A DNA stretch of 64,000 nucleotides, from positions 310,001 through 374,000 of the forward strand of contig NZ_JAHUWZ010000005.1 of the NCBI RefSeq assembly GCF_019218755.1, given 5' to 3'. The position numbers were made by a program, and so were the translations under genes. This DNA is from Acidovorax sp. sif1233. Lineage in GTDB: Bacteria > Pseudomonadota > Gammaproteobacteria > Burkholderiales > Burkholderiaceae_C. Below the pieces are notes generated by a model, which saw nothing but the letters and a program-made list of their open reading frames with translations, searched no databases and was not told the DNA's origin. Shown piece after piece: positions 1-21,635 of the stretch (position 1 is the stretch's first letter; each line of letters opens with the position of its first letter).

Positions 1-534
1 GTAGTACTTGAGCTGCTTGCTCACGATCTCGCCCAGGAACTCGTGCTGCGGCAGTTCCTGCGTGATGTAGTCGTGATAGGCCAGCTCCTTCACCTCGCGC
101 ACGCCGTGCACCAGGATGACTTCCTCGAACTTCTCGTACGTTTCGGGGTCCCGGATCAGGCTCAGGAATGGCGCCACGCCCGTGCCCGTGGAGAACATGT
201 ACAGCCGCTTGGCGGGCAGCAGGTAGTCGATCAGCAGGGTGCCGGTGGGCTTCTTGCCCACCACGATGTGGTCGCCCACCTTGATGTGCTGCAGGCGCGA
301 GGTCAGCGGGCCGTCGGGCACCTTGATGGACAGGAACTCCAGGTGTTCCTCGTAGTTGGGGCTCACGATGCTGTAGGCGCGCAGCAGGGGTTTGCCGTTT
401 TCCCCGCGCAGGCCGATCATCGTGAAATGGCCGTTGGAAAAGCGCAGGGCGGTGTCGCGCGTGGTGGTGAAGGAGAAAAGTCGGTCTGTCCAGTGGTGGA
501 CCGTCAGGACGCGTTCTTCGAGAAAGGCGCTCAT
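1..534 (-). CDS. fpr: Ferredoxin--NADP reductase, 3' end beyond window
   Basis: Flavoprotein that moves electrons between NADPH and ferredoxin or flavodoxin in the cytoplasm. The 178 visible residues begin MSAFLEERVLTVHHWTD and contain the FAD-binding RAYSIVSPNY block (about residues 52-61) and the NADP-binding start FSTGTGVAPFLSL (about 114-126), both typical of bacterial Fpr of about 257 residues. The C-terminal third is cut off by the window edge. The ATG at 534 gives the usual N-terminus. It follows fdxA on the same strand with a 66-bp gap, so the two probably form a reductase-ferredoxin pair. Family assignment is firm; its partner role with the divergent reductase operon is inferred. Confidence 0.93.
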   Translation of the reverse strand, partial: MSAFLEERVLTVHHWTDRLFSFTTTRDTALRFSNGHFTMIGLRGENGKPLLRAYSIVSPNYEEHLEFLSIKVPDGPLTSRLQHIKVGDHIVVGKKPTGTLLIDYLLPAKRLYMFSTGTGVAPFLSLIRDPETYEKFEEVILVHGVREVKELAYHDYITQELPQHEFLGEIVSKQLKYY

Positions 535-600
535 GGTGCTTGGGTCGGGAAAGTTGAAAAAAACAGGGGAAAACTGGCTGAAGTCCGCTCCCGGAGCGCG

Positions 601-930
601 TCAGAACGCGATATCCAGGCCGGAAAGCTTGTGGCTCACAACCCTCCATTGTTCCGCATCTGGAAGTGGAGGCTTTCTTTTGGTGATTGTGGGCAGGCCC
701 GGGGCCAGGTTTTTGTTGAATTCCAGGAAGGCAGCGAACTCCGCCGGCAGGTCCGTGTCCGCGTAGATGGCATTGGCCGGGCATTCGGGAATGCACACCG
801 CGCAATCGATGCACTCGTCGGGATCGATCACCAGGAATTGCGGCCCTTCCTTGAAGCAGTCGACCGGGCATACGTCGACGCAATCGGTGTACTTGCACCG
901 AATGCATGCGTCAGTGACAACGTGCGTCAT
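601..930 (-). CDS. fdxA: 7Fe ferredoxin FdxA
   Basis: Small electron carrier of 109 residues. The N-terminus [20 protein letters not shown] holds the 3Fe-4S/4Fe-4S cysteine pattern, followed by [16 protein letters not shown] (about residues 39-54) for the second cluster. The C-terminal tail after residue 60 is the usual FdxA extension. An in-frame ATG lies 15 codons upstream, but family members begin at MTHVV, so 930 is preferred. It is divergent from the 6-hydroxynicotinate reductase-like gene across 162 bp and sits upstream of fpr. That placement would suit supply of low-potential electrons to the reductase, though FdxA also has general housekeeping roles. Confidence 0.93.
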
Positions 931-996
931 ATTGGGGCTCCTCATGCACCTTTTCGGGGGGTGCGAAAACACCATTGCGGACCATGGATGATTACG

Positions 997-1017
997 CTAC
1001 ATTCGCGATAAATGTAG
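997..1017. promoter_or_regulatory. Candidate operator in the fdxA / reductase divergent promoter
   Basis: Perfect inverted repeat CTACATT-N7-AATGTAG. It lies in the AT-richer gap between the divergent fdxA and 6-hydroxynicotinate reductase-like genes, 66 bp from the fdxA start and 75 bp from the reductase start. The arm length and spacing suit a dimeric helix-turn-helix repressor. No regulator gene lies next to it in the window, so the binding protein is unknown. Confidence 0.4.
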
Positions 1018-1092
1018 TGATCACAACATTTAAGTTAAGTGAATGCTACACAAAATGCACTGAGCGTACAAGCATTTGAAAAGATGCAATGA

Positions 1093-2754
1093 ATGGGCCG
1101 CACGATGACTGAACACACCAAGACCGATGGGCTTCCGGGCATGGATGCGCCGGATCTGCCGCAAGTGCTCGAGCGCGCCCGGCCCCGCAATGAGCGCATG
1201 AACGCGGCCAAGGTCGAGTGCAATGCGTGCCCGGTGCTGTGCCAGATTTCCGAGGGCCGCGCGGGGGCGTGCGACCGCTACGCCAACCACGCCGGGGTGC
1301 TGGTGCGGCTGGACCCGGTGGTGGTGCTGCGCAAGACCCTGGAGGCCGGCGAGGCCACGCTGGTGCCGTTCGCGGCGCGGGCCCAGGCCGCGCAGCAGAG
1401 CGGTGCGGATGCCGCCGCAAGCGATGCGGGGAGCGGGCCTTCCACACCGCCCGCGCCCTGGTCGGGCGACCTGCTGCTGAGCGAAGAGGTCTTCGTGACG
1501 GGCGTGGGTTCGTCCACCACCTATCCTGACTACAAGCCCGCGCCGTTCATCGTGGGCTCCCAGGTGCAGGGTGTAGACATGGTGACAGTGGTCACCGAAG
1601 GCATCTTCAGCTACTGCAGCTTCAAGGTGAAGATCGACACCGACCGCTTCCTCGGCTCCGAGCAGGCCAATGTGCGCTGCAAGGGCGAGGTGGTGGGCCA
1701 CGTGACCACGGCGGAATACGGCTCGCAGATGCTGTCGCTCGGCGGCGTGCACCACCTGACCGGCGGCACCAAGAAGGAAGGCCGCGTCACCGCCGAGATG
1801 ATGCAGCTGCTGGGCAACAAGCAGGCCGTGGAGTTCACCATCGACGGCGGCTCGCAGCTCGTGATCCAGGCCGGGCGCGCGCCCATCGTCAACGGCGTGG
1901 CCGAGCAGCGCATGCGCGTGGGCTGCGGCTCGGCCGCCATCGGCATCTTCGCGCGCCAGTTTTTCGGCCATGCGGATGAGGTGGTGGTGGTGGACGACCA
2001 CATCACCGGCGTGTTGACCGAGCACCAGGCTGGGCGCTGCCTGGACATGAAGTCCTCTGGCATCCAGATGCGCGGGCGAAAGTCCACGCCGGGGCGCTAT
2101 TTCCAGGTGGCGAATCCGGGAACGGGCTGGGGCGGCACCGACATCGCCGACCCGCTGGCCATCATCGAAGGCTGGGACCCCGAGGTGGCATGGCCCGGCC
2201 TGCGCCTGCTCATGACATCCACCACGGGCGAGCATGCCTGCTGGTATGTGCTGGACGGGCAGCTGAACCCGGTGGAGGCGCAGATGCCTTCCGAAGTGCG
2301 CCGCATCGTGGACCGCATCGGCGAGAACTGCGAGCCCTCGCTGGCTTCGGTGCTTTTCCTCGGCGGCGCGGGCGGCAGCCTGCGTGCCGGCGTCACCGAG
2401 AACCCCGTGCTGCTCACCCGCTCCATCAAGAATGCGCTGGTCAATGTGACCTGCGGCGGCGCGCCGGCCTATGTGTGGCCCGGTGGCGGCATCACGGTGA
2501 TGGCCGACGTGCTGCGCATGCCCGACAACAGCTTTGGCACCGTGCCCACGCCCGCCATCGTGGCGCCCATCGAATTCAGCATGCGCCGCACCGACTACGA
2601 AGCACTGGGCGGCCATGCGGGGCAGATCCGCAGCCTGCGCGAGGTGCTGGAGCACGGCGCGTGGCACAACGACGGCGCGCCCCAGGCGCTGGCATGGCAG
2701 ACGCTGCCGTCCGCCAACCCCTGGCCGCTGGGGCGCCCGCCCCTGCTGGGCTGA
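1093..2754 (+). CDS. hnr: 6-hydroxynicotinate reductase-like Fe-S protein
   Basis: Predicted 553-residue iron-sulfur protein resembling 6-hydroxynicotinate reductase, which reduces the hydroxypyridine ring to 1,4,5,6-tetrahydro-6-oxonicotinate. An N-terminal cysteine set C43-x2-C46-x3-C50-x9-C60 is visible. The Eubacterium barkeri enzyme is known to be ferredoxin-dependent and to carry covalent flavin and Fe-S clusters. A TGGT stretch at residues 223-226 loosely recalls flavin-attachment Thr motifs (speculative). It is the first gene of a rightward operon, with 11 bp to the UPF0280 gene, and the operon ends in a nicotinate dehydrogenase-like pair. Neither possible start (1093 or 1105) has a strong ribosome site. 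The family call is good; the substrate here is inferred from context. Confidence 0.75.
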   Translation: MGRTMTEHTKTDGLPGMDAPDLPQVLERARPRNERMNAAKVECNACPVLCQISEGRAGACDRYANHAGVLVRLDPVVVLRKTLEAGEATLVPFAARAQAAQQSGADAAASDAGSGPSTPPAPWSGDLLLSEEVFVTGVGSSTTYPDYKPAPFIVGSQVQGVDMVTVVTEGIFSYCSFKVKIDTDRFLGSEQANVRCKGEVVGHVTTAEYGSQMLSLGGVHHLTGGTKKEGRVTAEMMQLLGNKQAVEFTIDGGSQLVIQAGRAPIVNGVAEQRMRVGCGSAAIGIFARQFFGHADEVVVVDDHITGVLTEHQAGRCLDMKSSGIQMRGRKSTPGRYFQVANPGTGWGGTDIADPLAIIEGWDPEVAWPGLRLLMTSTTGEHACWYVLDGQLNPVEAQMPSEVRRIVDRIGENCEPSLASVLFLGGAGGSLRAGVTENPVLLTRSIKNALVNVTCGGAPAYVWPGGGITVMADVLRMPDNSFGTVPTPAIVAPIEFSMRRTDYEALGGHAGQIRSLREVLEHGAWHNDGAPQALAWQTLPSANPWPLGRPPLLG

Positions 2755-2765
2755 GCGGCACCGCC

Positions 2766-3692
2766 ATGCAAGCCTGCCGCAATCCCCTGTCCGACGGCCG
2801 CTGGCATTTCCAGCACGGGCCCATGGATCTCGTCATCCAGGCGGAGGGCGCAGCCGATGCCGTGGCCCGGGCCCATGAGCGTGCCTGGGCGCGTTTCGAG
2901 GGTCTGCTGCAGGAACTGGTGGACGAGCTGCCAGCCCTGCGCGCGCCGGTGGAGGGGGGCGCCTGTCCTCTGCGCGGCGTGGTCGCGCGCCGCATGTGGA
3001 CGGCCTGCAGGCCGTACCGCGCAGGCTTCATCACCGCGATGGCTGCGGTCGCGGGGTCGGTGGCGCAGGAGATCCTCGGGTGCTATGCCCAGGACGGCAT
3101 TGGGCGGGCCTGGGTCAACAATGGCGGAGACATCGCGCTGCACCTGGCCCCCGGGCAGTCGGCCACCGTGGGGGTGTATTCCGACATCGCCGCGCTGGAC
3201 GCCGCGCAATGGCGCCACGGGCTGGTCCTGGACGGAAAGATTCGCATCGACAGCGCCATGCCCGTGCGCGGTGTGGCCACCAGCGGCTGGCGCGGGCGCA
3301 GCCACTCGCTGGGCATTGCCGACAGCGTCACGGTGCTGGCCCGCACCGCGGCCGAGGCCGACGCCGCGGCCACGATCGTGGCCAATGCCGTCAATGTGGA
3401 TGACGAACGCATCCTGCGCATGCCGGCATGGCGGGTCCGCGATGACAGCGATCTGGGTGCCATTCCTGTCACAGTGGATGTTCCGCCATTGCCTGCCGGG
3501 CTCGTGCATCGCGCGCTGGGGCAGGGGCTGCAAAAGGCGCAAGAATTGCAGGCACAGGGCCTGCTGTGGTTCGCCCTGCTCGCCTGCCAGGGCCAGTTCG
3601 TGGCCACCGCGGCGGCGCAGCCAGCGGCGGATGGCATGGCGCTGCCGGTGGAAATGGCGCCGCAGGCAGAAGTTGGTTCGGTATTTGCTTAA
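2766..3692 (+). CDS. UPF0280 (ApbE-like) family protein
   Basis: Predicted 308-residue cytoplasmic protein of the UPF0280 family, distantly related in fold to ApbE flavin transferases. Visible landmarks are an Ala/Gly-rich helix around residues 95-110, the VNNGGDIALHL block (about 117-127) and RGVATSGWRGRSHSLGIADS (about 173-192), which carries the family's GVATS-like signature. The start at 2766 is chosen because upstream sequence in this frame lies inside the preceding gene. It is tightly coupled behind the reductase gene. The characterised relative of that reductase has covalently bound flavin, so this protein is a plausible flavinylating enzyme for it; that is inference, not established for UPF0280. 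Confidence 0.75.
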   Translation: MQACRNPLSDGRWHFQHGPMDLVIQAEGAADAVARAHERAWARFEGLLQELVDELPALRAPVEGGACPLRGVVARRMWTACRPYRAGFITAMAAVAGSVAQEILGCYAQDGIGRAWVNNGGDIALHLAPGQSATVGVYSDIAALDAAQWRHGLVLDGKIRIDSAMPVRGVATSGWRGRSHSLGIADSVTVLARTAAEADAAATIVANAVNVDDERILRMPAWRVRDDSDLGAIPVTVDVPPLPAGLVHRALGQGLQKAQELQAQGLLWFALLACQGQFVATAAAQPAADGMALPVEMAPQAEVGSVFA

Positions 3693-3713
3693 CGAATTGC
3701 ACAGGTTTCCAAA

Positions 3714-4355
3714 ATGATCCAGATACGACGTGTTTTCACCCATCTCGAGGAAGTCCGGCATGAATTCGGGCCCGTGGCCGATGTGCCGCTGCTGCGCGGC
3801 GCCATCGGCGCGGTGCTGACAAACCCCTATTCCGGCCGGTATGAGCCGGACATCCTCCCGATGATGGACGCCCTGCAGGATGTGGGGCTGGACATGGCCC
3901 AGCGGCTGCTCAAGGCCATGGCCGTGCCCGCCGAGCGCATCGCGACCTACGGCAAGGGCGCCATCGTCGGGGCCGCCGGCGAGCTGGAGCATGGCGCGCT
4001 GTGGCACGTGCCCGGCGGCTATGCCATGCGCGAGCTGCTGGGCTGGAAGGGCGACCGCAACGCCTATGCCAAGGGCCAGGCGGAAAAGAAGACCGGGCAG
4101 CCCGCCAATGCCCTGTCCATCGTGCCTTCCACCAAGAAGGTCGGCGGCCCCGGCGCGGCGCTGGATGTTCCGCTCACCCACATCAACGCCAGCTACGTGC
4201 GCAGCCACTTCGATGCCATCGAGGTGCGCGTTCCCGGAGCGCCCGCGTCCGATGAAATCGTCTTCATCCTCGCCATGACCACGGGCGCGCGCATCCATGC
4301 CCGCGTCGGCGGGCTCAAGGCCGCCGACATCAGCCAATGGGACGGCCTGCGCTGA
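3714..4355 (+). CDS. Amino acid synthesis family protein (DUF1185), copy 1
   Basis: 213-residue member of the DUF1185/AA_synth family, which has solved structures but no agreed function. It shares with the next gene the blocks TNPYSGRYEPDI, YGKGAIVGAAGELEHGA, VPSTKKVGG and YVRSHFDAIEVRV in the same order. The conserved P-S-T-K-K and R-S-H-F-D residues are candidate catalytic or metal-binding positions. It differs from copy 2 by a longer middle segment (about residues 105-130) with a hydrophilic LLGWKGDRNAYAKGQ insert. The paired, divergent copies suggest a heteromeric enzyme. In a nicotinate-type operon lacking an enamidase it could act on the reduced lactam ring; that is speculation. Confidence 0.8.
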   Translation: MIQIRRVFTHLEEVRHEFGPVADVPLLRGAIGAVLTNPYSGRYEPDILPMMDALQDVGLDMAQRLLKAMAVPAERIATYGKGAIVGAAGELEHGALWHVPGGYAMRELLGWKGDRNAYAKGQAEKKTGQPANALSIVPSTKKVGGPGAALDVPLTHINASYVRSHFDAIEVRVPGAPASDEIVFILAMTTGARIHARVGGLKAADISQWDGLR

Positions 4356-4403
4356 AGGCGTCAGGCCCGCTGCCGCGCCCACAAGAAAACCAAGGAGCAA
4401 CAC

Positions 4404-4988
4404 ATGCCAGCCAAGATCCGGAAAATCATTGTCCAGACGGATGAAGTCCGCGTGGAGATGGGGCGCGACGTGCAGCCCCCCGTGCGCAAGGCCCTCGCCA
4501 TGGCCGTGATCGACAACCCCTTTGCGGGCCGCTATGTCGAGAACCTCGACGAGCTGGTGGCCATCGGCGAGGAGCTGGGGGCCCTGCTGGGCGCCCGCTG
4601 CGTCGCCGCGCTGGGCATCGAGCCGGGCCAGGCGCAGAGCTATGGCAAGGCCGCCATCGTGGGCGAGGCGGGAGAACTGGAGCATGCCGCCGCCATCCTG
4701 CACCCCAAGCTGGGCGCCCCGCTGCGCGTGGCGGTGGAAAAAGGCGCCGCGCTGGTGCCGTCGAGCAAGAAGATCGGTGGCCTGGGCACGGCCATCGACG
4801 TGCCCCTGGGCCACAAGGACGCGGCCTACGTGCGCAGCCATTTCGACGCCATGGAGGCCCGCGTGGCCGACGCGCCGCGGGCCAACGAAATCGTCGTCGC
4901 CGTCGTCGTGACGGACGGCGGCCGGCCGCTGCCCCGCGTGGGCGGCCTCAAGGCGTCCGAAATCCAGGGTACGGACGGGCTGCGCTGA
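4404..4988 (+). CDS. Amino acid synthesis family protein (DUF1185), copy 2
   Basis: 194-residue paralogue of the preceding gene. A clear ribosome site (aaggagcaacac) precedes the ATG at 4404. Family blocks are DNPFAGRYVENLDELV, YGKAAIVGEAGELEHAA, VPSSKKIGGLGTAIDVPLGH and YVRSHFDAMEARV. It is shorter than copy 1 because it lacks the central insert. Both copies end in the same way, with a VGGLKA motif and a C-terminal DGLR. No signal peptide or membrane segment is present, so it is probably cytoplasmic. Position between the UPF0280 gene and the transporter implies a part in the same catabolic route. Confidence 0.8.
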   Translation: MPAKIRKIIVQTDEVRVEMGRDVQPPVRKALAMAVIDNPFAGRYVENLDELVAIGEELGALLGARCVAALGIEPGQAQSYGKAAIVGEAGELEHAAAILHPKLGAPLRVAVEKGAALVPSSKKIGGLGTAIDVPLGHKDAAYVRSHFDAMEARVADAPRANEIVVAVVVTDGGRPLPRVGGLKASEIQGTDGLR

Positions 4989-5062
4989 GCGCGGTCCCCG
5001 GCACTACCATCACCCACCACCATCCCCCCTGTCTCCCCAACCCACCTTTCAGGAGTTTCCCC

Positions 5063-6268: not shown

Positions 6269-6273
6269 GTCGC

Positions 6274-6405
6274 AACCCTCCCTGAGACGCTTCGCGTCTT
6301 CCCCCTTCTGCCGTGCTGTGCGCGGGAAGGGGGCGCCGTCCCCGCTGCGGGGCGGCCCTTGCTCGGCTGCCCTGGCCTGGGGTGCGCCAGTTTCATAGGC
6401 TGTGG
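6274..6405 (+). repeat. Family B 3'-end hairpin repeat, copy B1
   Basis: GC-rich element beginning a few bases after the stop codon of the binding-protein gene: CCTGAGACGCTTCGCGTCTTCCCCC, a G-rich return arm, and GCGCCAGTTTCAT at the far end. The order of blocks matches copies at 27700-27793, 28880-28993 and 52318-52426 once those are reverse-complemented. All four follow a stop codon and read in the sense of their gene. The hairpin could attenuate or stabilise the transcript between the binding-protein and permease genes. Confidence 0.5.
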
Positions 6406-6437
6406 GCGGCGCGTAGGTAGCGCCGTGGAGACCTGAG

Positions 6438-8348
6438 ATGGGTTTTTCGAGTTTTATCGTTCAACTGCTCAACGGATTGGCGGGGGCTTCCTCGCTGTTC
6501 CTGGTGGGCGCCGGGCTCTCGCTGATCTTCGGCGTCACGCGCATCGTGAATTTCGCGCATGGCTCGTTCTTCATGGTGGGCATCTACGTCGCCTACTCGC
6601 TGGTGGCCAAGCTGGGCACGGGCCTGGGTTTCTGGCCCGCGCTGCTGCTGTCGGCCGTGGTGGTCGGCGCGCTCGGCGCACTGGTCGAGGTGGTGCTGCT
6701 GCGCCGCATCTACAAGGCGCCCGAACTGTTCCAGCTGCTGGCCACCTTCGCGCTCGTGCTGGTGATCAAGGATGCCGCGCTCTGGATCTGGGGCCCCGAG
6801 GAGCTGCTCGGCCCGCGCGCGCCGGGCCTGTCGGGCTCGGTGGACATCCTGGGGCGGCAATTCCCCTCGTACGACCTGTTCCTGATCGTGGTGGGGCCGG
6901 TGGTGCTGGGCCTTTTGTGGCTGCTGCTCACCCGCACCCGCTGGGGCACGCTGGTGCGCGCCGCCACGCAGGACCGCGAGATGGTCAGCGCGCTGGGCGT
7001 GAACCAGGCCTGGCTGTTCACGGCGGTGTTCGCGCTCGGCGCCCTGCTGGCGGGCCTGGGTGGCGCGCTGCAGCTGCCGCGCGAACCCGCCACGCTGGAG
7101 ATGGACCTGAACACCATCGGCGCCGCGTTCGTGGTGGTGGTGGTGGGCGGCATGGGGTCCATCCCGGGCGCCTATGTGGCGGCCCTGCTGATCGCGGAGA
7201 TCAAGGCCGTGTGCATCTGGCTGGGCGTGGTGGAGATCCTCGGCTACAGCGTCTCCTTCTCCAAGCTCACCCTGGTGGTGGAGTTCCTCGTGATGGCGGT
7301 GGTGCTGGTGGTGCGCCCCTGGGGACTGATGGGCCGTCCGCAGGGCGTGAGCCGCAACACGGGCCTGCCGGAGACACCGCTGCGCGCGCCCGACCGCTGG
7401 TTCAAGCTCGGCGGCGTGGCCCTGGTGGCCGTGCTGGTGCTGCTGCCGCTGCTCACGGCCGGCTCGCCGTACCTCACCGTGCTGTTCATCGACCTCTTGA
7501 TCGCCGCGCTGTTCGCGGCCAGCCTGCACTTCATCATGGGCCCGGCGGGCATGCACTCGTTCGGCCATGCGGCCTACTTTGGCCTGGGTGCCTACGCGGC
7601 GGCGCTGCTGGTGCGCTCTGCGGGCATTCCCATGGAGCTGGCCCTGGTGCTGGCACCGCTCGCGGCCGCGGCGGGCGCGCTCATCTACGGCTGGTTCTGC
7701 GTGCGGCTGTCGGGTGTGTACCTGGCCATGCTCACGCTGGCCTTCGCGCAGATCACCTGGGCCATCTGCTACCAGTGGGACGGCTTCACCGGCGGCAGCA
7801 ACGGCCTCACCGGCGTGTGGCCGGCGGCCTGGCTGTCGGACAAGCGCAACTACTACTACCTCACACTGGCACTGGTCGTGGGGGGCGTGCTGCTGCTGCG
7901 CCGCATCCTGTTCTCGCCGTTCGGCTATGCGCTGCGCGCAGGCCGTGATTCGGTGCTGCGCGCCGATGCCATCGGCATCGACGTCAAGCGCATGCAGTGG
8001 ACGGCCTTCGTGATCGCCGGGCTGTTCGCGGGCCTGGGCGGCGCGCTGTTCGCGTTTTCCAAGGGCAGCATCTCGCCCGAGACGCTGCACGTGGGCCGGT
8101 CGGTCGATGGCCTGGTGATGGTGCTGCTGGGCGGCATCCAGACACTGGCGGGCCCCGTGGTGGGCGCCGTCACGTTCACCTGGCTGCACGACACTGTGGC
8201 GCGCAACACCGATTACTGGCGCGCCATGCTGGGCGCCATCATCCTGATCCTGGTGCTGCTGTTCCCCCAGGGCATTGCGGGGGCCATCAAGCAGCTCTTC
8301 GACAACCGGCGCGAAGCCGATATCAACAAGCAGGAGGGCAAGGCATGA
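6438..8348 (+). CDS. Fused LivH-LivM ABC transporter permease
   Basis: 636-residue inner-membrane protein joining both permease subunits of a Liv-type importer. The N-terminal half (about residues 1-300) is LivH-like, with IFGVTRIVNFAHGSFFMVG near the start and GGMGSIPGAYVAAL near residue 235. A hydrophilic linker (about 300-320) leads to a LivM-like half with FIMGPAGMHSFGHAAYFGLG and a second EAA-type loop (GGIQTLAGPVVGAV). E. coli uses two proteins; such fusions are common in this bacterial family. A GGAG site precedes the ATG by 8 bp. Its stop overlaps the next start by ATGA, so translation is coupled. Confidence 0.9.
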   Translation: MGFSSFIVQLLNGLAGASSLFLVGAGLSLIFGVTRIVNFAHGSFFMVGIYVAYSLVAKLGTGLGFWPALLLSAVVVGALGALVEVVLLRRIYKAPELFQLLATFALVLVIKDAALWIWGPEELLGPRAPGLSGSVDILGRQFPSYDLFLIVVGPVVLGLLWLLLTRTRWGTLVRAATQDREMVSALGVNQAWLFTAVFALGALLAGLGGALQLPREPATLEMDLNTIGAAFVVVVVGGMGSIPGAYVAALLIAEIKAVCIWLGVVEILGYSVSFSKLTLVVEFLVMAVVLVVRPWGLMGRPQGVSRNTGLPETPLRAPDRWFKLGGVALVAVLVLLPLLTAGSPYLTVLFIDLLIAALFAASLHFIMGPAGMHSFGHAAYFGLGAYAAALLVRSAGIPMELALVLAPLAAAAGALIYGWFCVRLSGVYLAMLTLAFAQITWAICYQWDGFTGGSNGLTGVWPAAWLSDKRNYYYLTLALVVGGVLLLRRILFSPFGYALRAGRDSVLRADAIGIDVKRMQWTAFVIAGLFAGLGGALFAFSKGSISPETLHVGRSVDGLVMVLLGGIQTLAGPVVGAVTFTWLHDTVARNTDYWRAMLGAIILILVLLFPQGIAGAIKQLFDNRREADINKQEGKA

Positions 8349-9130
8349 GCTTGCTCAAAGTCACGGGCCTGGGCAAGTCCTTTGGCGGCGTCAAGGCCGT
8401 CGATGGCATCCATTTCGAGCTGGCCGCCGGCGAACTGCTGGCACTCATCGGCCCCAACGGCGCCGGCAAGTCCACCACCTTCAACATGGTCAACGGCCAG
8501 CTGGCGGCGGACGCGGGCTCGATCCAGCTCCACGGCCAGGAGCTCGTGGGCCGCAAGCCGCGCGACATCTGGCGCATGGGCGTGGGCCGCACCTTCCAGA
8601 TCGCAGAAACCTTCGCCTCCCTCACCGTGGTGGAGAACGTGCAGATGGCGCTGATCTCCCACGACAGCCGCCTTTTCGCGATGTGGCGCAAGGCGGCCGA
8701 CCACAAGCGAGAAGAAGCCCTGGCGCTGCTGGACCAGGTGGGCATGAAGTCCCAGGCCGACCGCCCCTGCAGCGTGCTGGCCTATGGCGATGTGAAGCGC
8801 GTAGAGCTGGCCATCGCCATGGCCAACGCGCCCAAGCTGCTGCTCATGGACGAGCCCACGGCCGGCATGGCGCCCAAGGAGCGCAACGAACTCATGGCGC
8901 TCACCAAGCAGCTCGTGATCGACCGCGGCATGGCCGTGCTGTTCACCGAGCACAGCATGGACGTGGTGTTCGCGTACGCCGACCGCATGATCGTGCTGGC
9001 GCGCGGGCGGCTCATCGCCGAGGGCAAGCCCCTGGAGCTGCGCGACCACCCCAAGGTGCAGGAGGTGTACTTCGGCACCGGCAAGACCTTCGAGAAGAAA
9101 ACGGCAGCCGCTGCTGCGGAGGCCGCATGA
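8345..9130 (+). CDS. ABC transporter ATP-binding protein, LivG-like
   Basis: 261-residue ATPase of the Liv-type importer. Walker A is GPNGAGKS (residues 36-43), followed by a Q-loop region TFQIAETFASLTVVEN and Walker B LLLMDEPTAGM. The signature motif is degenerate (VLAYGDVKRVELA in place of LSGGQ), as often seen in LivG. The C-terminal tail is Ala/Lys-rich. The start ATG overlaps the permease stop, and its own stop overlaps the next start, so the three genes are translationally coupled. It should pair with the LivF-like protein on the cytoplasmic face of the permease. Confidence 0.9.
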   Translation: MSLLKVTGLGKSFGGVKAVDGIHFELAAGELLALIGPNGAGKSTTFNMVNGQLAADAGSIQLHGQELVGRKPRDIWRMGVGRTFQIAETFASLTVVENVQMALISHDSRLFAMWRKAADHKREEALALLDQVGMKSQADRPCSVLAYGDVKRVELAIAMANAPKLLLMDEPTAGMAPKERNELMALTKQLVIDRGMAVLFTEHSMDVVFAYADRMIVLARGRLIAEGKPLELRDHPKVQEVYFGTGKTFEKKTAAAAAEAA

Positions 9131-9876
9131 GCATGACGACCAACGAAACCAAAGAAGTGCTGCTGCAGGCCCAGGGGCTGCAGGCCTGGTACGGCGCCGC
9201 GCAGATCCTGTACGACGTGGATCTGGACGTCCGCCGGGGCGAGGTCGTGGCCCTGATGGGCCGCAACGGCGCGGGCAAGTCCACCACGCTCAAGACGCTG
9301 ATGGGCATGCTCGCCAAGCGCAAGGGCCAGATCCGGTTCATGGGCCAGGACATCTCCAGGAGCGACCCGCACGATGCGGCGCGCCTGGGCCTGGGCTTCG
9401 TGCCCGAGGACCGCCGCGTGTTCACCGACCTCACGGTGATGGAAAACCTGGAGGTGGGGCGCCAGCCCGCCCGCAGCTGGCCCGATGGCACGGCAGCCCC
9501 GGTGTGGACACCCGAGCGTCTCTTCAAACTGTTCCCCAACCTGGGCGAAATGCCCCAGCGCCCGGGCGGGCGCATGAGCGGCGGCGAACAGCAGATGCTG
9601 ACCGTGGCCCGCACGCTCATGGGCAACCCCTACCTGGTGCTGCTGGACGAACCCTCCGAAGGCGTGGCGCCCGTGATCGTGGAGCAGATGGCGCACATGA
9701 TCCTGGAGCTCAAGGAACAGGGCGTGAGCATCCTGCTGTCCGAGCAGAACATGCACTTTGCCGAACTGGTGTCCGACCGCGCCTATGTGCTGGAGAAGGG
9801 GCAGATCCGCTACCAGGCCACGATGGCGGAGCTGGCGGCGAACGAAGAGGTTCGCCGCGCCTACCTCAGCGTATAG
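9127..9876 (+). CDS. ABC transporter ATP-binding protein, LivF-like
   Basis: 249-residue second ATPase of the importer. Walker A is GRNGAGKST (residues 45-53), the signature is MSGGEQQML and Walker B is LVLLDEPSEGV, followed by the switch-region sequence LLSEQNMHFA. Length and motif order match LivF. Translation is coupled to the preceding gene by an ATGA overlap. A 142-bp gap follows before the second binding-protein gene, with no clear terminator, so the operon probably continues. Confidence 0.9.
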   Translation: MSMTTNETKEVLLQAQGLQAWYGAAQILYDVDLDVRRGEVVALMGRNGAGKSTTLKTLMGMLAKRKGQIRFMGQDISRSDPHDAARLGLGFVPEDRRVFTDLTVMENLEVGRQPARSWPDGTAAPVWTPERLFKLFPNLGEMPQRPGGRMSGGEQQMLTVARTLMGNPYLVLLDEPSEGVAPVIVEQMAHMILELKEQGVSILLSEQNMHFAELVSDRAYVLEKGQIRYQATMAELAANEEVRRAYLSV

Positions 9877-10018
9877 CGCCATGGCCGCTGCCCGCCCGCC
9901 CATGGCGCGGCCAGGGCCGGGGGTGGCGGCTATGACGGATTCACAACACCTCGCGGAAATGGTTGCACAGCCGCTTCGCTTGCAGGGAAACTTGCGCCTT
10001 TGATGTAAGGAGCGTTTC

Positions 10019-11191
10019 ATGAAGTTTCGTGGGATGGAGGATGGGAGCATCGACCGCCGGGTGGTGCTGACGGCCCTGGCCGCCGCCGCTCTGGGAGCCG
10101 CTGGCCCGGCAGCGGCCGAGACCGGGGTGACGGACACCCGCATCAAGGTGGGGCAGTCGGCCGTTTTCACGGGGCCGGCCAAGGATTTCGGGGTGGACTA
10201 CAAGGCCGGCATCGTGCTGGCGTTCGACAAGGCCAACAAGACCGGCGGGGTGCACGGGCGTGCGCTGGAACTCGTCTCGCACGACGACGCCTATGAGCCC
10301 AAGAAGACCGCCGAGAACACCACGCGCCTCATCGAGGAGGACAAGGTGTTCGCGCTGATCGGCTACGTGGCCACGGGCAACCTGATCGCGGCCATGCCCA
10401 TCGCCGAGAAGGCGGGCGTGCCCATGTTCGCGCCGCTGGTGGGCACGACCTCGTTCCGCACCAACCACAACCGCCACCTGTTCCACGTGCGCGCCAGCTA
10501 CGAGACCGAGCTGCGCAAGATCGTGGGCCACCTGGCCACCCTGGGCATCAACAACATTGCCGTCATCTACCAGAACAGCGCGTTCGGCAAGTCCAACCTC
10601 GAGACCTGCCTGCAGATCGCGCAGGGCCTGAAGGTGAAGGTGGTGGAATCCGTGCCCATGGAGATCGCCGCCACCGACGCCAAGCCCCAGGTTGCCACGC
10701 TCACCAAGGCCCAGCCCGGTGCCGTGGTGATGATCATGGCCGGCAAGATGGTGGAAGTGTTCCTGCGCGACTACCGTGCCAGCGGCAGCGCGGCGCCGCT
10801 GTACACCATTTCCGTCGGCATCACCGACGCGCCGGGATCTGCGCAGCGCCTGAACGGCGGCATCGAAGGGCTGGTGACCGCCAGCATCGTGCCGTCGCCC
10901 CAGTCCAGCCGCATGCCCATCGTGGCGGACTACCGCAAGGACCGCGCCGACGCCGGCGAGAAGATCGACAGCTACACCATGCTGGAAGGCTACATCGCCG
11001 CGCGCGTGTTCGTCGAAGGCCTCAGGCGCGCGGGCCGCAACCTCACGCGCGATGGCTTCATCAAGGCCATGGAGGACATGGGGACGACCAAGCTCGGCGA
11101 CTTCCCGCTGCAATACGGCCCGGGTAACCACAATGGCTCCAACTTCGTGGACCTGGAGATGTACACGCGCTCGGGCACCTTGAAGCGCTGA
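10019..11191 (+). CDS. Second Liv-type ABC substrate-binding protein
   Basis: 390-residue periplasmic binding protein of the same class as the one at 5063 but clearly diverged from it. The leader has a twin arginine followed by a hydrophobic run (SIDRRVVLTALAAAALG, residues 10-26) and an Ala-rich cleavage site near residue 35, so Tat or Sec export is possible. The mature start is IKVGQSAVFTGPAKDFG. An ideal ribosome site AAGGAG lies 6 bp before the ATG. Two receptors for one permease set suggest two ligands, for example the starting compound and an intermediate, or different affinities. Confidence 0.87.
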   Translation: MKFRGMEDGSIDRRVVLTALAAAALGAAGPAAAETGVTDTRIKVGQSAVFTGPAKDFGVDYKAGIVLAFDKANKTGGVHGRALELVSHDDAYEPKKTAENTTRLIEEDKVFALIGYVATGNLIAAMPIAEKAGVPMFAPLVGTTSFRTNHNRHLFHVRASYETELRKIVGHLATLGINNIAVIYQNSAFGKSNLETCLQIAQGLKVKVVESVPMEIAATDAKPQVATLTKAQPGAVVMIMAGKMVEVFLRDYRASGSAAPLYTISVGITDAPGSAQRLNGGIEGLVTASIVPSPQSSRMPIVADYRKDRADAGEKIDSYTMLEGYIAARVFVEGLRRAGRNLTRDGFIKAMEDMGTTKLGDFPLQYGPGNHNGSNFVDLEMYTRSGTLKR

Positions 11192-11213
11192 AGGCCAGGA
11201 GTCCGTTCGCCCC

Positions 11214-11717
11214 ATGCACGCCACCCCCAGCGCCACGGCCACCGTCAACGGCCAGCCCTGCGCACTGCCCGCCACCGGCGCGGACGGCGCCACGCTGCTG
11301 CACGTGCTGCGCAACGACCTGCAGCTCAACGGCCCCAAGTACGGCTGTGGCCTGGGGCAGTGCGGCGCGTGCACGGTGCTGGTGGACGGCGTGGCCGCGC
11401 GGGCCTGTGTGATCCCCGCGCGGGGCGCGGCGGGGCGCGACGTGACCACGCTGGAGGGGCTGCCGGCGCGCTGCGGCCAGGCCGCGGGGCTGCACCCGGT
11501 GCAGCAGGCCTTCATCGACGAGCAGGCCGCGCAATGCGGCTATTGCCTGAGCGGCATGGTGATGATGGCCGTGGCCCTGCTGGAGCGCAACGCCGACCCC
11601 GACGAGGCCGCCATCCGCCGCGAACTGGCCAGCAACCTGTGCCGCTGCGGCACCCATGTGGAGATCATCCGCGCCGTGTTGCGCGCGGCCGTGCTGATGC
11701 GGGAGGCCAGGGCATGA
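11214..11717 (+). CDS. nicA: Nicotinate dehydrogenase-type small subunit (2Fe-2S)
   Basis: 167-residue subunit with two [2Fe-2S] clusters, from the xanthine dehydrogenase family small subunits. The plant-type motif C-x4-C-x2-C lies in YGCGLGQCGACTVLVDG with the fourth Cys in VAARAC, and the second cluster is formed by CGYCLSGM and CRCGTH. It transfers electrons from the molybdenum subunit. It overlaps the next gene by ATGA and matches the two-subunit NicA/NicB layout of Pseudomonas nicotinate dehydrogenase. The isoquinoline 1-oxidoreductase alpha subunit has the same design, so the substrate is inferred from the linked reductase gene. Confidence 0.82.
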   Translation: MHATPSATATVNGQPCALPATGADGATLLHVLRNDLQLNGPKYGCGLGQCGACTVLVDGVAARACVIPARGAAGRDVTTLEGLPARCGQAAGLHPVQQAFIDEQAAQCGYCLSGMVMMAVALLERNADPDEAAIRRELASNLCRCGTHVEIIRAVLRAAVLMREARA

Positions 11718-14700
11718 GCACCACGCCCGCCGGCGCCTTGCCATTGCGCGCCCACGCACCCCTGACCCGCGCTGACTTCCATGCCGCGCAGGGTGTGCTG
11801 CTGGTGGTGCGCAACCCGCCGCCCGGGCCGCCGCCCGTCAAAGGCCAGCCCGCGCTGGTGGCGGGCAATCCGGCCGAGGGGGTCGAAATCCTGATTGCCG
11901 TGTGGGACGACGGCAGCGTGACCGCGCTCAACGGTCACGTCGACCTGGGCACGGGCATCCGCACGGCGCTGGCGCAGATCGTGGCCGAGGAACTCGATGT
12001 GCCGCTGGCCCGGGTGCACATGGTGCTGGGCGACACCGCGCGCGCGCCCAACCAGGGTGCGACCATCGCCAGCGCTTCGATCCAGATCCACGCCAGGCCG
12101 CTGCGCATCGCTGCGGCGCAGGCGCGCCACTGGCTGGTGGCGCGCGCCGCCGCGCGCCTGGGCGTGGCGGCCGACACCCTGCGGGTGCAGGCCGGGGTGG
12201 TGCAGGCGGCCGCCGAACCGGCGCGCCAGGTGGCCTATGGCGAACTGCTCGCTGGCGCGCACACCACCCTGGAGCTCGCCGAGGCCACGCCCACCAAGCC
12301 CGCGGCCGACTACACCGTGGTCGGGCAGCCGGTGCCGCGCGTGGACATCCCCGCCAAGGTCAGCGGCGAGCTGGTCTTCGTGCACGACATGCGCGTGCCC
12401 GGCATGCTGCATGGGCGCGTGGTGCGCCCGCCGTATGCGGGCGCCGACCATGGCGACTTCATCGGCAACACGCTGGAATCGGTGGACCAGTCGTCCATCG
12501 CCCACATCCCGGGCATCCGCGCGGTGGTGGTGATCCGCGACTTCGTGGGCATCGTCGCCGAGCGCGAGGAGCAGGCCGAGCAAGCCCTGCGCGAGCTGAA
12601 GGTGCAGTGGAAGCACTGGCCCGGTTTCCCGCGCCAGGACAGCGCTGAAGCGGTGGAGCAGGCCATTCGCGCCAACCCCGCCACCCAGCGCCGCCTGGTG
12701 GACGAGGGCGATGTGGATGCCGCGCTGGCCGCTGCCGACCAGCCCATGCCGCGCACCTATGTGTGGCCCTACCAGCTGCACGGCTCCATCGGCCCCTCGT
12801 GCGCGGTGGCCGAGTGGCGCCAGGACGAAACCTCGGGCCGTGCCCGCATGGCCGTCTGGGCCGGCACGCAGAACCCCCATGTGCTGCGCGCCGACCTGGC
12901 CCGGCTGATGGGCCTGGCCGACGTGGACATCGACCTGGTGCGCATGGAGGCTGCGGGTTGCTACGGCCGCAACGGGGCCGACGACGTGGCGGCCGATGCT
13001 GCGCTGCTCTCGCGCGCCGTGGGGGCGCCCGTGCGCGTGCAGCTCACGCGCGAGCAGGAGCACCTGTGGGAGCCCAAGGGCACGGCCCAGCTCATGCAGG
13101 TGCGTGGCGGGCTCAACGCCGATGGCTCGGTGGCGGCCTACGACTTCGAGACCTCCTACCCCTCCAACGGCGCGCCCACGCTGGCCCTGCTGCTCACGCG
13201 CACCATCGAGCCCGTGGCCCAGGCCTACGAGATGGGCGACCGCACCGCGCGCCCGCCCTACGGTTACGAGAACCTGCGCGTGGCCGTGAACGACATGGCG
13301 CCCATCGTGCGGGCCTCGTGGCTGCGCGGCGTCTCGGCGCTGCCCAACTCGTTCGCGCACGAGTCGTATGTGGACGAGCTGGCCACGGCGGCGGGCGTGG
13401 ACCCGGTCGAATTCCGCCTGCAGCTGCTGAACGATCCGCGCGCGGCCGAGCTCGTGCAGGCCACGGCGGAAAAGGCGGGCTGGGTGCGCCGCACCGGCCC
13501 CTTGCAGCGCGGGCTGGACGGCGACTGGGTGCAGGGCCAGGGCTTTGCCTACGCGCGCTACATCCACAGCAAGTGGCCGGGCTTTGGCGCCGCCTGGGCG
13601 GCCTGGGTGGCCGACGTGGACGTGAACCGGAAGACCGGCGAGGTGCATGTGCGCCGCGTGGTCGTGGGGCACGATGCGGGCCTCATGGTCAACCCGGCCG
13701 GCGTGGAGCACCAGGTGCACGGCAACGTGGTGCAGACCACCAGCCGCGCGCTCAAGGAGCAGGTGCGCTTCGACCCCGTCACGCAGGCGGTGGACACGCG
13801 CGAATGGGGCAGCTACCCGATCCTGAGCTTCCGCGAGGTGCCGGTCATCGAGGTCATGCACATGCCCCGGCAGGACGAGGCGCCGCTGGGTGCGGGCGAG
13901 TCGTCCTCCGTACCCGGCACGGCGGCCATCGCCAACGCGATCTTCGACGCCACGGGTGTGCGCTTTCGCGCGCCGCCCTTCACGCCCGAGGTGGTGCGCG
14001 CCGGGCTCAATCCGCTGCCGGGCAACGCCGGTGCGGGAGATGCGGGCACGGCAGGCACCGCCACCACGCAGCCTGCCGACGTGCTGCCCACCCTGGAACT
14101 GCCAGCGCCTACCGTGCCCGCCACCGCCACGTGGCCGCGCCAGCGCAGCCCCTGGGCGCGTGCACTGGCCCTGGCCGCGGGTGGCCTGGCCATGGGCGCC
14201 GCGCTGCTGGGCTGGCGCCCGTCCATCGCGCCCGTGGTGCAGACGGCGGGCGGTGCGGCGGTGTACAACGCCGCCACCATCGAGCGCGGCCGCCTGCTGG
14301 CCGCCGCGGGCGACTGCGTGGTCTGCCATACCGCGCCCGGCGGCACGCCCAACACGGGCGGGCGCGGCATGGAAACGCCGTTCGGCACCGTCTACACCAC
14401 CAACCTCACGCCCGACGCCGAGACCGGCATCGGCCGGTGGTCGTTCAGCGCCTTCCAGCGCGCCATGCGCGAGGGCATCTCGCGCGACGGCCGCCACCTG
14501 TACCCGGCGTTCCCGTACACCTCGTTCGCGAAGATGAGCGACGACGACCTCACGGCGGTCTACGCCTACCTCATGGCGCAGCCCGCCGTGCGCGCCGAGG
14601 TGCCCGCCACCCGACTTGCATTCCCCTTCAGCGTGCGCCCGCTCATGGCTGGATGGAACGCGCTGTTCCACGACGCCACGCCCTGGAAGCCCGACCCCGC

Positions 14701-15451
14701 GCGCCCGCCCGAGTGGAACCGGGGCGCCTACCTGGTACAGGGCGTGGGCCACTGCGGCGCCTGCCACACGCCGCGCAATGCGCTGGGCGCGGAGCAGGGC
14801 GGGGCGGCCTTCCTGTCGGGCGCGCTCATTGACGGGTGGGAGGCCCCCGCGCTCACCGGCTTGTCCAAGGCACCCGTGCCCTGGAGCGCCGAGTCGCTCT
14901 ACGGCTACCTGCGCCACGGCCACAGCGCGCAGCACGGCAGCGCCTCCGGCCCCATGGCGCCCGTGGTGCGCGAGCTGGCGCACCTGCCCGACGGCGACAT
15001 CCGCGCCATGGCCACCTACCTCGCCTCGTTCACGGCCGCCACCGAGCCTGCCGCCGACGCGGCGCGGGCCCGCGCCACGGCGGCCGTGGCCCAGGCCGCC
15101 GCGCTCGCGCCCCAGCCCGGCTCCGCGCAGCGCCTGTTCAACGGCGCTTGCGCCGCCTGCCACCACGACGGCGACGGGCCGAAGCTGCTGGGCGTGAACA
15201 TTCCGCTGGCCCTCAACAGCAACCTGCACAGCGACCGGCCCGACAACCTGCTGCAGGTCATCGTGCACGGCATCCGCGAACCCGCCGCGCGCGACATCGG
15301 CTTCATGCCCGGCTTTGGCCACGCGCTCAGCGACGCGCAGATCACCGAGCTGGCAGGCTACATGCGCCAGCGCTACGCCCCCGGGCGCCCGGCGTGGCGT
15401 GATGTGCCCGAGGCGCTGGCCCGTGTGCGGGCGGGGCCTGCGCATCCTTAG
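11714..15451 (+). CDS. nicB: Nicotinate dehydrogenase-type large subunit: Mo hydroxylase fused to tri-haem cytochrome c
   Basis: 1245-residue two-part protein. Residues 1-780 are a molybdopterin aldehyde oxidase/xanthine dehydrogenase-type domain, ending in the catalytic-Glu block PLGAGESSSVPGTAAIANAI. A hydrophobic segment (about 815-835) can anchor it in the membrane. The C-terminal part carries three c-haem sites: C868VVCH, C1014GACH and C1146AACH. This is the NicB design, in which electrons from hydroxylation at ring C6 leave through the 2Fe-2S subunit and haems to the respiratory chain. No XdhC/MobA-type maturation gene lies nearby. Other N-heterocycles remain possible substrates. Confidence 0.83.
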   Translation: MSTTPAGALPLRAHAPLTRADFHAAQGVLLVVRNPPPGPPPVKGQPALVAGNPAEGVEILIAVWDDGSVTALNGHVDLGTGIRTALAQIVAEELDVPLARVHMVLGDTARAPNQGATIASASIQIHARPLRIAAAQARHWLVARAAARLGVAADTLRVQAGVVQAAAEPARQVAYGELLAGAHTTLELAEATPTKPAADYTVVGQPVPRVDIPAKVSGELVFVHDMRVPGMLHGRVVRPPYAGADHGDFIGNTLESVDQSSIAHIPGIRAVVVIRDFVGIVAEREEQAEQALRELKVQWKHWPGFPRQDSAEAVEQAIRANPATQRRLVDEGDVDAALAAADQPMPRTYVWPYQLHGSIGPSCAVAEWRQDETSGRARMAVWAGTQNPHVLRADLARLMGLADVDIDLVRMEAAGCYGRNGADDVAADAALLSRAVGAPVRVQLTREQEHLWEPKGTAQLMQVRGGLNADGSVAAYDFETSYPSNGAPTLALLLTRTIEPVAQAYEMGDRTARPPYGYENLRVAVNDMAPIVRASWLRGVSALPNSFAHESYVDELATAAGVDPVEFRLQLLNDPRAAELVQATAEKAGWVRRTGPLQRGLDGDWVQGQGFAYARYIHSKWPGFGAAWAAWVADVDVNRKTGEVHVRRVVVGHDAGLMVNPAGVEHQVHGNVVQTTSRALKEQVRFDPVTQAVDTREWGSYPILSFREVPVIEVMHMPRQDEAPLGAGESSSVPGTAAIANAIFDATGVRFRAPPFTPEVVRAGLNPLPGNAGAGDAGTAGTATTQPADVLPTLELPAPTVPATATWPRQRSPWARALALAAGGLAMGAALLGWRPSIAPVVQTAGGAAVYNAATIERGRLLAAAGDCVVCHTAPGGTPNTGGRGMETPFGTVYTTNLTPDAETGIGRWSFSAFQRAMREGISRDGRHLYPAFPYTSFAKMSDDDLTAVYAYLMAQPAVRAEVPATRLAFPFSVRPLMAGWNALFHDATPWKPDPARPPEWNRGAYLVQGVGHCGACHTPRNALGAEQGGAAFLSGALIDGWEAPALTGLSKAPVPWSAESLYGYLRHGHSAQHGSASGPMAPVVRELAHLPDGDIRAMATYLASFTAATEPAADAARARATAAVAQAAALAPQPGSAQRLFNGACAACHHDGDGPKLLGVNIPLALNSNLHSDRPDNLLQVIVHGIREPAARDIGFMPGFGHALSDAQITELAGYMRQRYAPGRPAWRDVPEALARVRAGPAHP

Positions 15452-19477: not shown

Positions 19478-21635
<2,158 letters not shown>

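Follow-up and report, generated by a model that had tools for sequence, protein, structure and literature searches.

A conserved operon for the predicted reductive degradation of nicotinate in Acidovorax sp. sif1233, with candidate roles for its UPF0280 and DUF1185 proteins

The predicted reductive nicotinate operon

The window analyzed here is a stretch of 64,000 nucleotides from the 5.76-Mb genome of Acidovorax sp. sif1233 (genome coordinates G000:C19:310001-374000). It carries a rightward operon with the gene order hnr–UPF0280–DUF1185A–DUF1185B–liv importer–nicA–nicB, in which hnr encodes a homolog of 6-hydroxynicotinate reductase (Hnr). The operon appears to encode the upper pathway of nicotinate degradation by a reductive route, in which the pyridine ring would be hydroxylated and then reduced; we put the probability of this reading at about 0.85, a figure that applies to the pathway and excludes the accessory roles. 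The pathway is already known and the operon is a further case of it. New by comparative genomics are the fixed pairing of UPF0280 with Hnr and the proposed assignment of DUF1185 to a chemical stage common to two pathways; the apparent replacement of an enamidase by a HyuAB-type enzyme may be new as well.

The reductase is tied to 6-hydroxynicotinate by the adjacent enamidase gene, because the encoded protein resembles the enzyme of Eubacterium barkeri that is described as hydrolyzing the product of Hnr (PMC7356986). The match to the E. barkeri structure (PDB 2vun) reaches 376 bits (E 2.7e-111) with 182 of 381 aligned residues identical (48%), and the aligned HxH is among the residues kept. The initial annotation had stated that the window contains no enamidase gene, which is literally true but misleading, as the gene lies divergently about 1 kb beyond the left edge, its end 974 bases left of the first base. 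Since the enamidase gene adjoins the operon, the route most likely leads from nicotinate via 6-hydroxynicotinate and tetrahydro-oxonicotinate (THON) to 2-formylglutarate. The proposed combination of a hydroxylase with a ring reductase is borne out as one conserved unit. The make-up of a NicAB-type nicotinate dehydrogenase is present, with a [2Fe-2S] subunit and a molybdopterin subunit containing three c-type hemes according to Pfam matches and motifs.

In the proposed pathway, nicotinate would be taken up by the Liv-type importer and hydroxylated by NicAB to 6-hydroxynicotinate, with electrons passing to the cytochrome c chain as expected from the enzyme family. Hnr would then reduce 6-hydroxynicotinate to THON with electrons delivered from NADPH via ferredoxin reductase and ferredoxin. 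Judging by homology, the divergently encoded enamidase very likely hydrolyzes THON to 2-formylglutarate and ammonia. UPF0280 is proposed to be dedicated to Hnr and to attach the flavin of that enzyme, and the two DUF1185 proteins might convert 2-formylglutarate into glutarate semialdehyde by decarboxylation, which would lead into the glutarate route described for Azorhizobium. HyuAB would replace the enamidase as ring opener in related genomes.

Formation of 2-formylglutarate from nicotinate by this reductive route is described in PMC9304392 and PMC7356986, and the conversion of THON into glutarate, which has one carbon fewer than 2-formylglutarate, is described for Azorhizobium (PMC3511419). 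The reductive aerobic route of Azorhizobium, which the initial annotation had mentioned, is indeed in print: a publication from 2012 describes clusters with Hnr, an ABC importer, and two unknown proteins in Azorhizobium, Bradyrhizobium, Rhodopseudomonas, and SG-6C (PMC3511419). Thus, the combination of hydroxylase and reductase is not new in aerobes. The suggested lack of an oxidative-route NicX gene extends to the whole genome of strain sif1233, which has no match to the marker PF02073, the family of NicX.

It is very unlikely that the operon is mainly used for a different pyridine or hydroxypyridine carboxylate and that nicotinate is an incidental substrate. The wide substrate variety of this molybdenum hydroxylase family and of Liv receptors would allow for it, and the NicAB assignment comes from Pfam matches and motifs. 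However, the enamidase is close to an enzyme acting on THON, and SG-6C with its similar cluster is described as degrading nicotinate and 6-hydroxynicotinate completely (PMC3511419). Among the open-licence papers listed, none was found that mentions Acidovorax sp. GW101-3H11, a strain with this operon (L008), together with nicotinate.

The genes of the operon and its surroundings are listed below (positions in the window unless a genome or locus is named; ORF, open reading frame).

1..534, minus strand: ferredoxin--NADP reductase, truncated at its 3' end by the window edge (complete gene L082:11758-12534); Pfam FAD_binding_6/NAD_binding_1; homolog annotated ferredoxin--NADP reductase in L083
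L082:10989-11711, same strand as the ferredoxin reductase, outside the window: TetR regulator; homolog annotated TetR in L083
G000:C19:307740-309026, same strand as the ferredoxin reductase, outside the window: enamidase; match to PDB 2vun
601..975, minus strand: ferredoxin of the FdxA type, which presumably donates electrons to Hnr; NCBIfam NF045490 FdxA, 156 bits (cut-off 135)
1105..2754 (ORF from 1093), plus strand: Hnr, 6-hydroxynicotinate reductase homolog; 56-78% identical to annotated plasmid proteins
2766..3692, plus strand: UPF0280/COG2122 protein with predicted ApbE fold; NCBIfam NF003322, 392 bits (cut-off 290)
3714..4355, plus strand: DUF1185 protein (AA_synth) of clade A, R-x-H-x-R kept; PF06684, 221 bits (cut-off 27); closest solved structure 3byq
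4404..4988, plus strand: DUF1185 protein of clade B, R-P-L-P-R; PF06684, 244 bits (cut-off 27); 2qtp, 296 bits
5063..6268, plus strand: periplasmic receptor of the Liv-type importer; Peripla_BP_6, 241 bits
6438..8348, plus strand: fused LivH-LivM permease; ORF, homologous plasmid genes annotated ABC transporter permease
8345..9130, plus strand: LivG ATPase; homolog annotated ABC transporter ATP-binding protein
9127..9876, plus strand: LivF ATPase; homolog annotated ABC transporter ATP-binding protein
10019..11191, plus strand: second periplasmic receptor, mostly an Acidovorax addition; Peripla_BP_6, 205 bits
11214..11717, plus strand: NicA-like [2Fe-2S] subunit of the hydroxylase; Fer2_2, 96 bits
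11714..15451, plus strand: NicB-like molybdopterin subunit with C-terminal tri-heme cytochrome c; MoCoBD_2, MoCoBD_1, Cytochrom_C

All genes named in the initial annotation were recovered at their places by ORFs, Pfam, NCBIfam, and CXXCH motifs. For hnr, only the start is in doubt: residues M5-T6-E7-H8 are invariant in 38 aligned Hnr sequences, and the start is therefore probably ATG 1105 and not 1093. Little space separates the genes of the operon: hnr and UPF0280 are 11 bases apart, and livHM-livG-livF as well as nicA-nicB overlap by 4 bases. The genes for ferredoxin and ferredoxin reductase are divergent from the operon. The CXXCH motifs of the NicB-like subunit are located at residues 868, 1014, and 1146, and the NicA-like subunit is 60-62% identical to the products of nicA-annotated genes that lie close to hnr in Neorhizobium and Paracoccaceae.

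Conservation of the operon

A search for the same gene order elsewhere, as the initial annotation had suggested, found it near-invariant across 80 loci. These are the best 80 of 333 loci from a genome scan, mostly from Comamonadaceae, and each gene was counted only in loci with enough flank for it. The order is ena-tetR-fnr < > hnr-upf-dufA-dufB-sbp1-livHM-livG-livF-nicA-nicB. On the left side, ena was present in 74/74, tetR in 77/77, and fnr in 76/79 loci; next to hnr, upf was found in 79/79, dufA in 78/79, and dufB in 77/77. The importer genes sbp1 (77/77), livHM (72/72), livG (70/70), and livF (69/70) and the hydroxylase genes nicA (68/69) and nicB (63/67) are similarly conserved. The exception is the second receptor (10019-11191), which is present in only 19/67 loci, mostly Acidovorax; the FdxA-type ferredoxin is kept in only part of the loci compared. 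Thus, the gene order is kept far beyond chance.

Among these best 80 loci, the closest hnr relatives are found in Acidovorax (Comamonadaceae) with 88-93% identity. Of 388 genomes sampled from the family to which the window belongs, 64 encode Hnr (3 further weak matches were dropped), which makes the operon common there without being universal. Beyond the enamidase gene, the region L082:1774-6654 encodes, as read from translations, an AMP ligase, an acyl-CoA dehydrogenase, an SDR, and an IclR protein. Close homologs of these genes are found in a few other Acidovorax-like loci, and they may represent a lower pathway or an unrelated unit.

UPF0280 as a proposed partner of Hnr

The pairing of UPF0280 with Hnr was surveyed in 398 Pseudomonadota genomes drawn evenly. 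Only strong matches were counted for Hnr (a 33rd genome, G147, was dropped at E 9.7e-4), and weak UPF0280 matches in G293 and G373 were dropped as well. Hnr was found in 32 genomes from 16 genera, UPF0280 was above the cut-off in the same 32, and neither exceeded the threshold in the remaining 366 (Fisher 6e-48, uncorrected for relatedness). The two genes are adjacent in 31 of the 32 genomes, and a MarR gene lies between them in the other (L123). In a plasmid collection, UPF0280 accompanies Hnr in 26/26 records. The only further plasmid record with UPF0280 is pBPS33-1 of Hydrogenophaga sp. BPS33 (L174), which has no hnr match; both UPF0280 copies read there are preceded by an apparent hnr tail of 47 residues (34% identity, E 0.002). 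Because both copies follow this probable truncated tail, an operon fragment has seemingly been captured and amplified on this plasmid.

It is highly improbable that UPF0280 and DUF1185 are passengers held in place by operon linkage alone. The tight linkage of UPF0280 to hnr would agree with that, but neutral passengers should have been lost in some lineages, and among the 398 genomes there was no UPF0280 above the cut-off without hnr, with the positives spread over 16 genera. Even the sole plasmid record without an hnr match keeps the apparent tail in front of UPF0280.

UPF0280 may well be the flavin-attaching partner of Hnr, the chances being about even, since it occurs in the same 32 genomes and its structural model shows the fold of ApbE flavin transferases. 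This is further supported by the motifs NxGGDI, ATSG, and ADxxAT, which are kept in UPF0280. Work by Alhapel from 2006 is said to have reported a covalently bound flavin in the Hnr of E. barkeri. A search of the open-licence literature found no report that mentions covalent flavin together with 6-hydroxynicotinate, and no mention of UPF0280.

Several points weigh against this assignment. Against ApbE-type chains, UPF0280 reaches Foldseek TM-scores of only 0.33-0.47 with 10-15% identity, and the Pfam ApbE model scores below its gathering cut-off of 25.6 bits with both the UPF0280 of the window (11.4 bits) and a Sulfitobacter homolog (20.9 bits). ApbE client proteins carry the motif Dxx[ST]GAT, and the corresponding D..[ST]GAT was found in 0 of 96 Hnr sequences. 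The AF2 model of Hnr is poor (pLDDT 48.6, from an alignment of 38 sequences that are all at least 75% identical to the window's protein). The homology of COG2122, the family of UPF0280, to ApbE is described as seemingly stopping short of the flavin-binding region (PMC5764234). Furthermore, COG2122 and DUF39 proteins are described as serving homocysteine synthesis in methanogens and Desulfovibrio, with a function in sulfur trafficking (PMC5764234, PMC12068725).

The latter description leads to the alternative that UPF0280 serves Hnr in sulfur trafficking or in iron-sulfur (Fe-S) maturation. A function of this kind has been proposed for MA1715, a COG2122 protein described as required together with a DUF39 enzyme (PMC5764234, PMC12068725). 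Hnr itself looks like an Fe-S protein, with C43, C46, C50, C60, C175, C278, and C413 invariant in 96 sequences. These seven cysteines are fewer than the reported Fe-S content of the E. barkeri enzyme would need, a point against the proposed pathway. With regard to UPF0280, no cysteine is more than 80% conserved in 109 UPF0280 proteins of Hnr clusters, a point limited by C81 and C274, which are invariant in a narrower alignment of 71 UPF0280 proteins. The fold and motifs of UPF0280 are of the ApbE type, and a search of 339 Pseudomonadota genomes gave no DUF39 (PF01837). A sulfur-related role is thus unlikely, and flavin attachment is the preferred function of UPF0280.

Plasmid-encoded proteins with the annotation 6-hydroxynicotinate reductase share 56-78% identity with the Hnr of the window, and the homolog of SG-6C is described as 42% identical to E. 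barkeri Hnr (PMC3511419). The window's Hnr has no Pfam, NCBIfam, or PDB sequence match at E 0.001, and a profile search against the PDB returned one row at chance level (E 0.2). As both Hnr and DUF39 pair with COG2122, a kinship of Hnr with DUF39/HcyBio was considered and dropped on the basis of sequence: five Hnr proteins gave no PF01837 match up to E 10 (with filters that drop most matches above about 0.1), and the sequence search of the PDB had no hit at E 0.001; the AF2 model was too poor for a structural search.

Two minor observations concern the distribution of UPF0280. On pBPS33-1, it occurs at four places, in repeats that also contain a Rieske oxygenase gene and transposase genes of IS1071, and the UPF0280 match at G386:C28:9639-10463 contains one in-frame TGA. 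No UPF0280 was found in phages.

Exchange of presumed ring openers and of hydroxylases

An enamidase with at least 59% identity is encoded in 18 of the 32 Hnr genomes of the survey. HyuB of the hydantoinase/oxoprolinase-type HyuAB is present with at least 65% identity in 16. None of the 32 has neither ring opener, and both occur only in G123 and G194 (Fisher 5e-7 for the mutual exclusion, uncorrected for relatedness). An in-frame stop lies within a few of the matches (enamidase in G365, G287, and G123; HyuB in G194 and G197). The pattern does not reflect operon linkage only, because HyuB is often distant from hnr, with the gene on a different contig in G274, G333, and G367 and some 97 kb away in G071. 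HyuAB probably opens the same ring as the enamidase, and use of ATP by HyuAB is assumed from its family. With Hnr and UPF0280 as a fixed core, the distribution is consistent with one ring-opening chemistry taking the place of the other.

The hydroxylase varies in a similar manner. Near hnr, 38 of 41 further loci (27/30 with the exceptions L088, L089, and L123, and 11/11 in a second set) encode either a NicAB-like enzyme or an enzyme with an FAD subunit of the xanthine dehydrogenase kind. On a tree of Hnr with 48 tips, for which ring-opener and hydroxylase labels were set by hand, at least 3 ring-opener changes and at least 4 hydroxylase changes are required, compared with a minimum of 10 each in 500 shuffles. 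Thus, ring opener and hydroxylase are inherited with the core and exchanged now and then. Reductive opening of the pyridine ring, which was first described in an anaerobe, is suggested to be modular and fairly common among soil and water bacteria, with a HyuAB-type enzyme indicated in place of the enamidase in part of them.

DUF1185 proteins and their proposed role at the 2-formyl-dicarboxylate stage

DUF1185 proteins are encoded in 31 of the 32 Hnr genomes. In a tree of 92 DUF1185 proteins, clades A and B separate from each other and from a third clade of 15 members that comes from loci without Hnr. Clade A keeps the motif R-x-H-x-R, which reads R-P-L-P-R in clade B, where the His is lost. 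The solved structures 3byq and 2qtp, nearest to clade A and clade B, respectively, are presumably the proteins BB2672 and SPO0826 treated in PMC2954203. Both proteins are described as hexamers in solution, and in BB2672, a cluster of conserved histidines is described close to a large cavity at the interface (PMC2954203).

DUF1185 genes also occur in another context, which was assessed with one locus each from 20 of the 28 genomes that have DUF1185 only (two of the 20 supplied query proteins). These loci contain genes for an aldehyde dehydrogenase (17), an alpha/beta hydrolase (15), an LLM monooxygenase (13), and a flavin reductase (13). The same gene set is annotated tgnA, tgnB, and tgnC for trigonelline degradation in Acinetobacter sp. 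PK01. The hydrolase step of this pathway reportedly gives CO2 and succinate semialdehyde, as Perchat is said to have found in 2018. The trigonelline route should therefore pass through 2-formylsuccinate before succinate semialdehyde. Because a 2-formyl-dicarboxylate stage would be common to both pathways and the glutarate of Azorhizobium has one carbon fewer than 2-formylglutarate, a decarboxylase would be the simplest common role. DUF1185 as a 2-formyl-dicarboxylate decarboxylase, acting here on 2-formylglutarate, is a tentative assignment with not quite even chances. G123 and G194 contain a second DUF1185 A+B pair beside the enamidase at a separate locus without hnr (L163, L164), and DUF1185 is therefore placed at or after ring opening and not at the reductase.

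Some observations do not agree with this role. G139 contains Hnr without DUF1185, and nine genomes of genus g110, which we take to be Bradyrhizobium, have clade B without clade A. In addition, a DUF1185 protein is described in a 7-hydroxycoumarin cluster, for which no formyl acid is expected; attempts to see a helper effect are said to have failed there (PMC7913881).

Alternatively, DUF1185 could aid the ring opener or the next aldehyde dehydrogenase, as a tautomerase or imine hydrolase, or could be an allosteric subunit, which is conceivable but rather doubtful. Clade B tracks the enamidase, being present in 18/18 enamidase genomes versus 1/14 genomes with HyuAB only. Eleven further DUF1185 copies located elsewhere in these genomes (three from HyuAB-only, five from g110, and three from other genomes) fall into neither clade A nor clade B, so these counts stand; an additional 82-residue fragment in G159 was not included in the tree used to place them. 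The link is looser on plasmids, as clade B is present in 5/8 plasmid HyuAB loci (L085, L086, L090, L091, L092), a count that covers the loci and not enamidases elsewhere in those cells. The A+B pair beside the enamidase and the loss of the His in clade B would also agree with a helper role, as would TgnF, which is called a DUF1185 homolog and said to stimulate the TgnE step, the oxidation of succinate semialdehyde (PMC7913881). However, clade A is also present in HyuAB genomes without enamidase. A role as helper of the aldehyde dehydrogenase need not be general, because DUF1185 is accompanied by only one aldehyde dehydrogenase in the 16.6 kb read of the trigonelline-type cluster of R. leguminosarum. 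Decarboxylation remains the preferred function of DUF1185.

A role of DUF1185 as a ring-opening amidohydrolase similar to cyanuric acid hydrolase, in place of a missing enamidase, was dropped after the enamidase had been found next door and HyuAB in other genomes. The likeness of DUF1185 to the chorismate-mutase-like fold (PMC2954203) is too general to support such a role.

Comparison with known systems and wider meaning

The NicAB-type hydroxylase is shared with Pseudomonas putida KT2440, in which the ring is cleaved oxidatively by NicC/NicX; here, PF02073 is missing from the genome. The predicted reduction of 6-hydroxynicotinate followed by an enamidase corresponds to the fermentation cluster of E. 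barkeri, which differs by its FAD/selenium hydroxylase and fermentation to propionate, in contrast to the NicAB-type hydroxylase with c-type hemes and the predicted glutarate route in strain sif1233. The trigonelline pathway of Acinetobacter sp. PK01 has in common the DUF1185 gene, proposed for the 2-formyl-dicarboxylate stage; there, the ring is opened by a flavin monooxygenase, and the stretch read contains neither Hnr nor UPF0280. The proteobacterial clusters described for Azorhizobium caulinodans, Bradyrhizobium, R. palustris HaA2, and SG-6C are alike in Hnr, genes for the first three steps, an ABC importer, and two conserved unknown proteins (PMC3511419). By description, the operon is set apart from them by its occurrence in Comamonadaceae, the fused LivHM, the second receptor, the TetR gene, FdxA, and the two DUF1185 genes. 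Homocysteine synthesis with COG2122 and DUF39 resembles it in that a UPF0280-family protein is needed with one redox enzyme (PMC5764234); the client enzyme is another one, and no Pfam match of Hnr to DUF39 was reported.

Taken together, UPF0280/COG2122 would be a second protein-flavin transferase family beside ApbE, dedicated in Pseudomonadota to Hnr, and DUF1185 a 2-formyl-dicarboxylate decarboxylase common to nicotinate and trigonelline catabolism; that both parts hold is somewhat unlikely. Two families of unknown function would thereby gain concrete roles. By extension, the DUF39 enzyme of methanogens and Desulfovibrio would be modified by COG2122, whose part in the homocysteine synthesis of methanogens and sulfate reducers has been a loose end.

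Other features of the window

Rfam and tRNA scans of the window gave no matches. An ammonium transporter (Ammonium_transp, 381 bits) is encoded at 40381-41928, about 25 kb from the operon expected to release ammonia, and is probably unrelated to it. The segment 22001-24000 has a GC content of 0.564 compared with about 0.69 in most of the window and contains few ORFs; it is flanked by a gene of the FAD-binding monooxygenase type (20460-21635) and a tannase-family gene (23892-25493).

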